From Fodinicola feengrottensis (GTDB lineage Bacteria; Actinomycetota; Actinomycetes; Mycobacteriales; HKI-0501), in assembly GCF_010993775.1 (NCBI RefSeq), contig NZ_WOTO01000035.1, forward strand, positions 1 through 64,000: DNA of 64,000 nucleotides, given 5' to 3'. The notes beneath the pieces were generated by a model. It was not told where the DNA came from and searched no databases. It worked only from the letters and a program-made list of their open reading frames with translations. A program made the translations under genes and the position numbers. Positions 9,155-27,065 of the stretch are shown here, one piece after another (within the stretch, counting starts at the first letter, position 1; the number at the start of each line of letters is the position of its first letter).

Positions 9155-9364
9155 AGCAAGCGGTTCCCGTGTTCACTGTTGTTCGGTCGATGGGTGAGGC
9201 GCCCGGCTTTATCCCTGCGGCATCGTCGCGGCTACGCCGTAGTCCTTCACCGCGACCTCCCGGGCCAGACCTGTGGCACCCTCCCGAAAGTTCCCAACCG
9301 CCCACCATCAGACCGTTGGTACGCACCGCCACCCAGCCCACATCCGCCAGATTCGAGCTGGTCA
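9155..9364 (-). mobile_element. Decayed group II intron fragment (domain I-like part)
   Basis: Read on the minus strand from 9364, this stretch aligns by eye with 23508-23690 of the large intron further right. Shared blocks in order are CCAGCTC-AAT--GG-GGAT, GGGAACT, ACGGCGTAGCCG, GATGCCGCAGGG, AAAGCCGGG, ACCGAACA-CAGTGAAC and GGGAACCG. The order and spacing are kept, with scattered substitutions typical of an old copy. No reverse-transcriptase gene or domain V is attached, so it is a dead fragment. It directly abuts the IS5 relic. Confidence 0.72.
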
Positions 9365-22399: not shown

Positions 22400-22554
22400 G
22401 CTCCGGACTCGGCTCGGCATCCGCCGGCGAACTGTTCCTGGAGTCGCCAGCTGAGATCGATCGCCTCAACGCTGTATACGACCATCTTCGTACACTGTCG
22501 ATGTCACCGGCAGAGTCGGTGAAGTTGATAAAGGAGCACGCAAGTGGAACCTAA
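22400..22554 (+). pseudogene. C-terminal remnant of a helix-turn-helix/DUF5753 regulator
   Basis: LFLESPAEIDRLNAVYDHLR and SMSPAESVKLIKEH match the last 40 residues of Scr1-type XRE regulators, which in actinobacteria precede a DUF397 gene, as here: the stop overlaps the DUF397 start at 22544. The helix-turn-helix and most of the DUF5753 domain are missing; the sequence left of about 22400 is unrelated. Confidence 0.65.
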
Positions 22555-22737
22555 CGTCTGGATTACATCCAGCCGGTCGGGCAACAACGGGCAGTGTGTC
22601 GAGGTACGCAATGCCAGCACTCACGTCGATGTCCGTGACAGCAAAATCGAGCGGGTGGCATGCTCACCGTCTCGGCCGACACCTGGAAGACCTTCACCCG
22701 TGGCCTCTGTGACGGCACTCTGTCGACCGACGACTAG
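22544..22737 (+). CDS. DUF397 domain protein (one frameshift)
   Basis: Small actinobacterial protein usually paired with an XRE/DUF5753 regulator. WITSSRSGNNGQCVEV and HVDVRDSK are the signature. After a one-base shift near 22653 the second half reads GGMLTVSADTWKTFTRGL and ends with stop 22737, about 64 residues in all. DUF397 proteins work with their partner regulator in developmental or toxin-antitoxin-like control; with the partner truncated this one is probably an orphan. Confidence 0.82.
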
Positions 22738-22757
22738 CCAACCTCACGACGCAACGA

Positions 22758-22842: not shown

Positions 22843-22868
22843 CTATGCCGGAGTCATGGGAAGAGTCC

Positions 22869-25800
22869 ATGGCCAAACTTCAGCGTATCCAGAACCGCTA
22901 TAAGGGCATGGTCCTTGGCCAGGAACGCAACGACTGGACGAACCGCACTGCGAGTGACCTGCAACGTGGCGTTCGGTCGGTGTGGTCACCTCGACAACAG
23001 CAATGGATACAGCCGTTCTGCATGAGCGCTCTCATCTGTACCGACCAGGCTGGCGACAACGAACAGCGCCTGATCACGGCCTCTGGTGACTACGGCCGTA
23101 TCCCTGACGAGCTGGTGGACATCGTCGAGGCTTACGGCTTCCAGACTGTGCCGCTTGACAACGAGCGACTACATGCCGAAGCCCGCGGTGTCCGGTGGGT
23201 GGATCTCAACGGCCTGAAGCTCCAGTCGATTAGCGCCGGTTTTGATGTCTGCTACGACTGTGAGTGCGCGCCACGAGGCGCTGCTGTATCGGATGGGGGT
23301 GAGAGACCATCCATCTCTTCGTCATCGTAGTGGCGGAGTGAAGCTGGAGGCAGCCTGAGCCGAGGGTCGTCGGTGAGGGTGGGAGCAGCCTCGACAAAGT
23401 CGCGTCGGCTCGGTACTGCCGGATGGGCCGGGCGTGGTGAGCAAGACGGGAAGGTATACGCGAGGAACCGGTGTTGTTACGCCTCTTAACATGGCGCCAG
23501 CTCAAATCCGGTGGATACGGGCTGGAACGCGGCGCGCACCCACCTTTTGCGGGTGGGGAACTCCTTGTCTGGGTCTTCGCAGTCTGGGCGGGAGGCCATG
23601 GTGAATTGTCTACGGCGTAGCCGTGGCGATGCCGCAGGGGCAAAGCCGGGTGCCTAACCCGTCAACCGAACAGCAGTGAACGTGGGAACCGTCCGTGACC
23701 GCTCCGCGCCAAGCCTTCGACCAGAGGGTCGGGGTGCGGATAGGTCCGATGCCGACCGAAGGCGCGGATGGGGCGGAGCCGCCGTAGTACTCCGAGCCGG
23801 GGAAAGCCTGGCGCATGGGGAAGGGCGGCAGCGTGTCAGTTAGGGAGGGAATGCAATGTCCGAAGACGTGTCGGTGAATACCGGCGCTGTGTTGTGGCCG
23901 GATCCCGATTCGGCTCGCGGCACGGTACGGAGGATGCAGACCAAACTGCACCATTGGGCGGGAGAACGTTTCCTCTCGCCGGTTTGGTGACCTGTCAACC
24001 TCAACCTCGTCTACGCTCCAGCGTTTCTTATGTACGCGTGGGAACGCGTGTCCAACAACGCTGGGGCGAGGACTCCGGGTGTCGACAAGGCCACCGTGGC
24101 CTGGATCGAGACTCGGGTCGGGGTCGGGGAGTTCTTGGGCTATATCCGTGACTCGCTGAAATCCGGTGAGTTCCGGCCGATCGAAGTACGACAGGTCATG
24201 ATCCCCAAGGGGACGACCGGGAAAGTCCGGAAACTCGGGATTCCCACTGTCGCCGATCGCGTAGTCCAGGCAAGCCTCAAAGCGGTGCTGGAGCCCATCT
24301 TCGAGGCGGATTTCCAACCGTGCTCGTATGGCTTTCGCCCGAACCGGCGCGCACACGACGCTGTTGCCGAGATTCATCTTTTCGCCACCAACCCCAGGAA
24401 TTACCACTGGATATTGGAGGCGGACATCAAAGCCTGTTTCGATGAAATATCGCATACGGCTTTGATGTGTCGCCTACGGGCGAGAATCAAGGACAAGAGA
24501 GTCTGCGCGCTGGTGAAGGCCTTCCTGAAGTCCGGGGTCATGACGACGTCCGGCGATCGGGAAGAAACAGTGACCGGGACCCCGCAGGGCGGAATCCTCT
24601 CTCCGCTGCTGGCGAACATCGCCTTGTCCGCGCTGGACGAGCACTTTGCCCAGCAATGGCACCGGGAGATGGGAACCGCATACCAGCGGAGCAAACGCAG
24701 ACGTAATGGCCTCGGCGTGTGGAGACTCATTCGCTATGCGGACGATTTTGTCCTCATGGTGGACGGGCAGCGCCACCACGCCGAGACACTGCGGGAGGAG
24801 GTGGCAGCTGTACTCGACCTTCTGGGGTTACAGCTGGCACCGGAGAAAACCCGTGTTGTCCATATCGATGAGGGCTTCGACTTCCTCGGCTTCCACATCC
24901 GTCGGGCGTGTCATGCCAAGTGTGTAAGCCGGAGGTGTACCAAGATCGACTGGCCTGTTGGTTGGTCGGAAGGGACACCGTATGACTCGGAACATTTCGT
25001 CTCGTCGTGTGATGATGAGACGGCGGCTGCGCGGCTGACGGGGGCGCTCTCGACCGCGACGATCGATGCTCTACTAGCGGACGCGAAGGCCACTGGGACG
25101 CCGGTAGACGGGGCGAACGGTCTGCTGAACCAGATGACCAAGGCGGTGCTGGATCGGACGTTGCAGGTCGAGATGAGCGACCACCTGGGCTATGAGCACG
25201 GCGCGCCGGAGGGACGCGGGTCCGGCAACTCCCGGAACGGGCTAACCCGCAAGACCGTGTCCACGCTCAGCGGCCCGGTCCAGATCGAGGTGCCGCGGGA
25301 CCGGAACGGGACGTTCGAGCCCACGATCGTACCCAAACGTGCCCGTCGTTTGGGGAATATCGATGACATGATCCTGTCTTTGTACTCGCGAGGAATGACA
25401 ACTCGTGACATCGAGGCGCATTTACTTGAAATATATGGAGTAAACGCGTCCCGGGAGTTGATCTCGAACATCACCGACGTGGTCGTCGACGAGATCAAGC
25501 TGTGGCAGTCACGGCCGCTGGACGAGGTCTACCCGATCCTCTACATCGACGGGATCCGGGTCCGAATCAAGGACAACGGCGTGGTCACCACCAAGGTCGC
25601 GTACCTGGCCATCGGAGTGGACGTGGACGGCCGCAAACACTCCCTCGGATGCTGGATCCAGGACACCGAGGGAGCCAAGTTCTGGGCCAAGGTCCTGACG
25701 GACTTGCGCAACCGCGGCGTGCGGGACATCCTCATCGCGTGCTGCGACGGGCTGACCGGGCTCCCGGACGCGATCCGCTCAATCTTCCCTGACACCGTAG

Positions 25801-27065
25801 TGCAAACCTGCGTCGTGCACGTCATCCGCAACGCCATGCGGTTCGTGTCCTACAAGGACCGCAAACCACTGGCCGCGTCGATGCGCGAGATCTATACCGC
25901 GCCCACCCTGGAGGCCGCCGAGCTCGCCCGCGACGCGTTCGCCAAGACCCACGGCAAACAATACCCCGGAGCCGTCGACGTGTGGAACAACGCCTGGAAC
26001 GACTTCACCCCCTTCCTGGACTACCCCGCAGAACTCCGGAAAATTGTCTACACCACCAACCAAATCGAATCCATCAACTTCCAACTCCGCAAAATCACCA
26101 AAAACCGCGGACACTTCCCCGACAAAGACGCAGCCATGAAACTCATCTACCTCGGACTACGCAACATCTCCACCCAACGCGGCGGAGCCTCAGGAACAGG
26201 CACCTGGGGCTGGAAAATAGCACTCAACACCCTCACCCAACTATTCCCCGGCCGCCTAACATTCTGATATAATAAGACAAGTAAGCCAATCACCTCCGGC
26301 TTACACAGAAATCGTGACAGGCTCCATCCGTCGGATGCGCAAACCAGGAACGCAGAAGCAGTACGTCTACACCATCCCGTCCAAGAAGGCCATCGCGTCG
26401 ATCAAGGGCAAGGTAAAGGCCAAGACGTACAGGTCAACCCGGCACATGGACCTGGATGAACTGCTCGTCAGTCTCAACCGGACATTGAAGGGATGGGCGA
26501 ACTATTTCCGACACGGCGTGTCTGCGGCTGTATTCAACGCGATCGACAGCTTCACATGGAAGCGGATCATGCGCTGGATACGTGCCAAGTACGCAGGCAA
26601 ACACCAGCTCGGAATGACCGAACTCCGCCGCCGGTTCTGCGACAGAGGATGGCGATTCGCCCACAACGGGACCATCTTCAGCGGCGCATCCAGCGTCGCC
26701 ATCACACGTTACCGCTACCGCGGCAACACCATCGCAACCCCATGGTCCCCCAAACCAGCAGCCACCAACGGCTAACCAGTGGCCAAGACACGCGGAGAGC
26801 CCGATGCCGGGAGACCGGCACGTCGGGTTCGGAGGGCGGCGCAGGGAAACGGACCGGTGGCCACATCGGCACCGCGCCCTGTGCCGACCCTACCGACCTC
26901 TGTTCGGCGCACGGTGTCAGACCAAGCACCATGACCAAACGGCAACGTGAAGCCAACAAGCGTCAGGGACCACCGCCGCCAGGGTTGAACCCCTGGAGCC
27001 CACTGATCCACCGAAACCACCGAAAGGCCCGAGCATATGACTGCCAGCCGCCTGCGCACTCTTGA
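22869..27065 (+). CDS. Unknown protein, gene split by a group II intron (parts 22869-23263 and 26894-27065)
   Basis: Part 1 begins MAKLQRIQNRYKGMVLGQER (an in-frame ATG at 22845 is also possible) and includes RLITASGDYGRIPDELVDIV, then GLKLQSISAGFDVCYDC. The intron begins at GTGCG (23264), two bases into a codon. Joining 23263 to 26894 keeps the frame and gives DLCSAHGVRPSTMTKRQREA. The junction forms a Cys/His cluster, CYDC then DDLCSAH, that could bind zinc. About 188 residues. The printed end is at 27065; a one-base shift near 26990 would instead end it at 27040, PPKPPKGPSI, in an ATGA overlap with 27037. I do not recognise the family. Confidence 0.65.
24904..26324 (+). mobile_element. IS256-family insertion sequence, 1,421 bp
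   Basis: The left end starts GGGCGTGTCA and contains TGTGTAAGCCGGAGGTG; the right end has the complement CACCTCCGGCTTACACA and finishes TGACAGGCTC, so the terminal repeats are imperfect over about 35 bp. The 8-bp direct repeat CATCCGTC flanks it at 24896-24903 and 26325-26332. Excision with one repeat copy restores the intron reverse-transcriptase frame (GFHIRR|MRKPGTQ). It carries one transposase gene. Confidence 0.92.
24982..26267 (+). CDS. IS256-family transposase
   Basis: Mutator-type DDE transposase, about 425 residues. The open frame has no canonical start of its own; ATG 24982 (MTRNISSR) is one base out of register, with the shift near 25003. Core features: HLGYEHGAPEGRGSGNSRNG, LYSRGMTTRDIEAHLLEIYG, first Asp in PILYIDGIRVRIKD, second Asp in ILIACCDGLTGLPDAI, the CxxH motif TCVVHVIRNAMRF, and the catalytic Glu in TTNQIESINFQLRK. 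The C-terminus WGWKIALNTLTQLFPGRLTF is intact. It appears recent and potentially active. Confidence 0.9.
26797..26830 (+). ncRNA. Group II intron domain V
   Basis: A 34-nt hairpin beginning GAGCCCGATG and ending CGTCGGGTTC, with a GCCGG-GAGA-CCGGC tip. It matches the catalytic domain V fold: AGC/GTT triad base, two-nucleotide bulge and tetraloop. It lies 21 bases after the reverse-transcriptase stop, as expected, and is followed by a domain VI-like hairpin. Confidence 0.88.

Follow-up and report, generated by a model that had tools for sequence, protein, structure and literature searches.

A group II intron that carries a nested IS256-family element interrupts a coding gene of Fodinicola feengrottensis, in a 64,000-nt stretch of DNA that was analysed as a whole and that we refer to as the window. 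We consider it very likely that the intron homed into this host gene, that its RT/maturase (IEP) was broken by the insertion element, and that the ribozyme is spliced with a maturase acting in trans, which would restore the host gene. The coordinates of all features are listed in Table 1. The intron measures 3630 nt with the IS256 element, and approximately 2.2 kb without it. Its terminal sequences, GTGCG and CCCTAC, agree with the GUGYG and AY consensus of the 5' and 3' ends, respectively, and the region comprising domains V and VI matched the Rfam model RF00029 with 54.5 bits (E-value 6e-8; the gathering score of this model is 40). Domain V is a 34-nt hairpin with an AGC triad and a GAGA loop, as expected for the catalytic hairpin, and the minimum free energy structure calculated with RNAfold predicts a bulged adenine (A26887) in domain VI, 7 nt from the 3' splice site. 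A first-pass annotation had already proposed a group II intron based on the GTGCG end and the 34-nt domain V, and the Rfam match bears this out. The possibility of a twintron was rejected, since the inner element is an IS256 transposon and not an intron. An antisense match to Ms_AS-8 at 23321-23399 was weak and fell under its gathering score. Elsewhere in the window, on the reverse strand at 9161-9361, approximately 200 nt are 74% identical to intron positions of about 234 to 428; no IEP match was found near this stretch, which, judged by this similarity, is a piece of a group II intron related to this one.

Table 1. Features of the interrupted host gene, the intron, and the nested IS256 element (positions are those of the window).
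Feature	Position	Strand	Basis or remark
Host exon 1	22845..23263	+	ORF; ends ...GFDVCYDC + GA; start from paralogue alignment
IBS2 (TGCTACG)	23250..23256	+	6/7 pairs with EBS2
IBS1 (ACTGTGA)	23257..23263	+	7/7 pairs with EBS1, one G-U
Intron	23264..26893	+	Boundaries; empty-site homologues; two other copies, virtually identical and sharing both ends
EBS2 candidate (CATGGCG)	23490..23496	+	Intron position 227
EBS1 candidate (TCGCAGT)	23577..23583	+	Intron position 314
IEP (RT/maturase) ORF, 5' part	23856..24903	+	tblastn of the intact C79 IEP; RVT_1
8-bp target duplication CATCCGTC, left copy	24896..24903	+	
IS256-family element, 1421 bp	24904..26324	+	Transposase oriented as the RT; Transposase_mut
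8-bp target duplication CATCCGTC, right copy	26325..26332	+	
IEP ORF, 3' part, maturase domain X	26333..26775	+	GIIM (PF08388), E-value 6e-19
Domains V and VI	26795..26893	+	RF00029; RNAfold
Host exon 2	26894..27040	+	Frame as read runs to 27065
Partner gene, 143 aa	27037..27468	+	Directly downstream of the host gene

The 5' 592 nt of the intron are present three times in the genome, in the window and in sister copies on contigs C1 and C79. The IEP of the window copy is split by the IS256 element into a 5' part that is 97% identical to residues 1-348 of the intact IEP of the C79 copy (tblastn), and a 3' part that is 100% identical to residues 346-494 of the same protein. The RT with its YADD motif was recognized by RVT_1 (E-value 3e-38), and this 5' part is fused in frame to the IS256/Mutator transposase (Transposase_mut, PF00872, E-value 2e-115). 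The nearest PDB sequence to the IEP is the maturase of 6me0, and a domain search found no match to an endonuclease domain in the protein. The inserted element combines the features of the IS256 family, i.e. a DDE Mutator-type transposase, terminal inverted repeats, which are imperfect here and contain TGTGTAAGCCGGAGGTG, and an 8-bp target duplication as had been described before, with copies at 24896 and 26325. Ten other copies or part-copies of this element, 98-100% identical, are present in the genome, and the C1 and C79 introns are free of it. Because of the 8-bp duplication and the IS-free sister copies, the insertion is no sequencing artefact. The region encoding the N-terminus of the transposase contains an extra TG (25010-25011) that is absent from six other copies; without these two nucleotides, the transposase frame starts at ATG 24982 (MTRNISSRRDDETAAARLTG).

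When position 23263 is joined to 26894, the frame that starts at 22845 stays open for 196 codons and runs through CYDC^DDLCSAH, so that upon removal of the intron ...GFDVCYDC meets DDLCSAHGVRPSTMTKRQREAN in a single frame, as had been proposed. The restored frame is not a matter of chance, since in G001, a second genome of this genus, three intron-less homologues align with the spliced protein without a break at the junction (CDDLIRAEGIKPATITKRQ, CDDAIRAEGIVPSTLTKRQRETN, and CDDRVRSKGIRPSTLTQRDRAAN); exon 1 shares 60% identity with an intron-less homologue in this genome. The first-pass annotation had named homologues that stop at 23263/26894 as counter-evidence, and those in G001 do continue across. 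It had also suggested a host protein of 188 amino acids starting at ATG 22869. The frame from this ATG does comprise 188 codons after splicing, and both ends of the protein require revision. ATG 22845 is the more likely start, since the paralogues open with MPDESLE[QE]S and the window gene with MPESWEES. At the other end, one frame over, the host ends with ...PTDPPKPPKGPSI and a TGA at 27038-27040 that overlaps the ATG of the partner gene at 27037, and the C1 paralogue ends with the same ATGA overlap onto its own partner, which makes a 1-nt indel near the host C-terminus likely. The TGA at 27038-27040 is probably the true stop, and the reading to 27065 would be the result of such an indel. The restored frame supports the claim that the full host protein would need splicing, and for the partner gene we infer the same dependence.

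The following history would account for this arrangement. A mobile actinobacterial intron lacking an endonuclease would have retrohomed into the sense strand of the host gene, just after the codon for the second Cys of the CxxC motif and two bases into the next codon, the target being set by pairing of EBS1 and EBS2 with the stretch of 14 nt in exon 1 that codes for this motif. Later, the IS256 element would have landed in the RT ORF within domain IV, which is dispensable for catalysis, leaving the window copy without its own maturase and with an essentially unaltered ribozyme. Splicing would restore the host protein and also its connection to the partner gene that it overlaps, and the maturase would be provided in trans by the other, virtually identical copies of the intron in this genome. 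That a maturase is needed in trans had been pointed out before, and a plausible source is now at hand: the C79 intron carries an intact IEP of 495 aa (TIGR04416, 377 bits versus a cutoff of 300), so the same genome encodes a maturase that could act in trans on the IS-broken window intron. The IEP of the C1 copy is frameshifted in the assembly. The C79 copy is inserted in antisense orientation within an ORF that resembles an FAD monooxygenase, and therefore its IEP needs its own promoter. Bacterial introns without an ORF are nearly always found in genomes that also encode a related IEP, which may serve them in trans (PMC4424553). From its anatomy and copies, we infer that the window intron is probably spliced. 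The IS adds 1.4 kb, which may hinder transcription, and the host genes may be dispensable, as several paralogues exist, which speaks against taking selection for splicing for granted.

A reading that we find rather unlikely, and still the strongest of the alternatives, is that the copy no longer splices efficiently since the IS entered it, and that the host gene has become a null allele for which the paralogues cover. We have the same doubts about its expected product, a truncated protein of 161 aa encoded by exon 1 and 67 nt of the intron, up to a stop at 23330. The loss of the IEP in cis and the multiple host-family genes in the genome fit with this reading, as does the report that truncation or inactivation has affected most intron copies in bacteria (PMC4424553). 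However, the ribozyme of the window copy has essentially no substitutions compared to the sister copies, both exons are open, and a related intact maturase is encoded in the genome, which speaks against this reading.

The small lesions in this region have to be weighed against the quality of the assembly. The essential rpoB gene is spread over at least three separate frames (C75:117325-120523), compared to one frame of 1156 aa in G001. Comparison of the other IS copies with that in the window gives 66 indel bases and 13 substitutions, the differences between the three intron copies are indels when ambiguously aligned bases next to them are set aside, and at full genome size the genome is 74.6% complete. 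Indel errors are widespread in this assembly, and for that reason frameshift-based claims anywhere in the window need care. Removal of the IS had been said to restore the RT frame. The split caused by the IS stands, and a second lesion was overlooked: upstream of the IS the frame is also lost near 23969-24007, with a stop at 23987, and both the C1 and C79 copies read through the matching region. In addition, the window intron starts with GTGCGCGCCACG and related introns with GTGCGCCACGAGGC, leaving 2 extra nt in the window. Since the assembly is rich in indel errors, the RT frameshift and stop near 23987, the 2 extra 5' nt, and the shift at the host C-terminus are probably all sequencing errors, and the stop in the N-terminal part of the RT was rejected as proof of decay. 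There is a small chance that they are true mutations of a decaying element; the lesions do stand in the assembled sequence, but indel errors are found throughout the assembly. A DUF397 gene at 22544-22740 appears frameshifted after VDVRDSK, with the other frame going on as GGMLTVSADTWKTFTRGLCDGTLSTDD, and this is probably another sequencing indel.

The host protein has no family match in Pfam, NCBIfam, or PADLOC, PDB profile searches returned nothing of value, and neither the genome_contigs scan nor PLSDB contained relatives of it. A single-sequence AlphaFold2 model of the exon-1 ORF had a pLDDT of 36 and was unusable. In eight divergent family members, AE (usually HAE, in some DAE), an R, and both Cys residues of CxxC are invariant, and a distant relative, L040, matches XOO_2897-deam with an E-value of 4e-4, which is under the curated cutoff. 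Based on these motifs and this one sub-threshold match of a distant relative, the host product is probably a member of the zinc-dependent deaminase superfamily. L040 and L041 are 467-aa proteins from another genus with a C-terminal domain related to the host family, and their sub-threshold XOO_2897-like match suggests a connection of this family to bacterial polymorphic toxins. The genus contains multiple copies of the host family, which turned up in 4 of the 399 genomes sampled from the order, in two of them weakly. The partner gene, which has no Pfam or NCBIfam match, also directly follows six other host-gene loci (tblastn), and this recurrence is compatible with the two forming a functional pair. 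It is quite improbable that the intron serves as a regulatory switch, selecting between truncated and full-length forms of a deaminase-like protein and governing the coupling to the partner. The unspliced frame does stop approximately 22 codons past the junction, with HAE and CxxC retained and the C-terminal part lost, and the intron occupies the same codon in two paralogues, but there is no evidence of conservation outside this genome, and both copies are explained by recent insertion.

The C1 intron sits at the same codon of a host paralogue, and its removal restores one frame through CYDC^DDRIQAKGI. In their 5' part, the window and C1 introns are identical at 590 of 591 positions (99.8%), whereas the two exons are 58% and 48% identical, and therefore these are recent independent insertions rather than the outcome of gene duplication. 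Duplication of a single intron-containing gene, which the shared codon in homologous genes might suggest, can practically be dismissed, since no conserved flank was found beyond the IBS region and the idea could be saved only by strong gene conversion limited to the intron. Pairing with the 14 nt that encode the CxxC motif would explain why a diverged paralogue carries the same intron at the same codon. Since EBS2 was selected by visual inspection with the sites already known, the following exact pairing is to be taken as a proposal: 13 of the 14 positions pair in the window, 14 at the C1 site, and 12 at the C79 site, with 7/7 pairs for EBS1 in the window and C1 and 6/7 in C79, and 7/7 pairs for EBS2 in C1 and 6/7 in the window and C79. 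An alternative EBS2 near 23326 (CGTAG) was rejected, as it lies too near to the 5' end and fits less well at the ectopic C79 site. The equivalent sites of intron-less paralogues mostly pair less well with EBS1 and EBS2. One empty paralogue site, on contig C50 (61366-61733, L016; TGCTACGACTGCGC), shows 12/14 pairs; this intron-less paralogue is spread over several frames.

A scan of genome contigs returned 446 related IEP loci, of which 80 were kept (L053-L132), nearly all of them actinobacterial, and the best IEP match among the kept loci was 79%, in Streptomyces sp. WZ.A104. The actinobacterial relatives share with the window intron the 5' end, the size of approximately 2.2 kb, and a related IEP, and they are often inserted sense and in frame as well, in their case within transposase genes. 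Of ten spliced host frames put to Pfam, a biased sample chosen largely for junction peptides resembling known genes, nine were transposases, and in most the domain spans the junction. The transposases belong to Tn3, IS3, IS30, IS110, ISL3, ISAzo13, IS256, and another DDE type, whereas the window host is a deaminase-like gene. Several junctions are at or near what we take to be catalytic residues: W..DI^T in IS3, GHWEGDL^ in IS30, LDAT^Y in IS256, and NKIE^HR in ISAzo13. In a more distant subclade (L085-L132), TGG is present at positions -15 to -13 of the 5' exon at 28 of the 35 non-redundant sites, across different transposase families, compared to 1 of 20 sites among the closer relatives of the window intron, which suggests that TGG is a fixed recognition element in this subclade.

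Every part of the composite has a precedent, and it is largely a familiar kind of mobile element. Among published bacterial group II introns within genes are Ll.LtrB in the relaxase gene of Lactococcus (PMC6003770) and, cited in PMC4424553, an intron in recA of Geobacillus kaustophilus; in both, the full product of the interrupted gene needs splicing, as would be the case here. In contrast to both, the window host is genus-restricted, multicopy, and deaminase-like, two paralogues are occupied at the same codon, and the window intron has lost its maturase in cis. The closest parallel for this loss is TeI4g::ISEL2f of Thermosynechococcus elongatus, of which the IEP ORF is also broken by an insertion element, in a genome that also contains related introns and IEPs able to act in trans (PMC2882425), and the maturation of introns in trans by a related IEP has been described more generally (PMC4424553, PMC2882425). 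However, the T. elongatus introns are thermophilic cyanobacterial ones with few located within genes, while the window intron lies in a coding gene that is in frame after splicing. The first-pass annotation was thus right about the location in a coding gene, but presenting it as exceptional was too strong, considering the relatives in transposase genes and the published cases (PMC4424553, PMC2882425). The window offers a clear natural example of a bacterial gene with an apparent need for splicing whose intron has lost the maturase in cis, with an intact, near-identical maturase elsewhere in the genome, and the passage from an autonomous retroelement to a splicing-only intron served in trans becomes directly testable.

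A tentative proposal, which we hold to be somewhat short of an even chance, is that an endonuclease-less actinobacterial lineage has specialized in sense, in-frame insertion beside catalytic or metal-binding codons of multicopy genes, namely those for catalytic acidic residues in several transposase families and for the CxxC of the deaminase-like family in the window. If true, pairing of the EBS with slowly evolving motif codons would let one intron colonize many paralogues. The E.c.I4-type introns also home into multicopy genes at specific positions, namely IS3-like transposase genes; both the intron and the host genes are different, and the likeness concerns the homing pattern only (PMC3522654). 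The repeated use of catalytic-motif codons is the less familiar part, and it stands in contrast to a report that conserved sites are not favoured by group II introns (PMC2814812). This view of indifference to site conservation would have to be revised if insertion at catalytic codons is upheld in an unbiased survey. Finally, Nocardiopsis metallicus contains ten copies of one related intron on a single chromosome (L069-L076, L081, and L084; 64% IEP identity). They mostly follow a near-identical ...TGAGAAAACCTCA and, judged by these sites, represent a separate, proliferating homing-site strategy.
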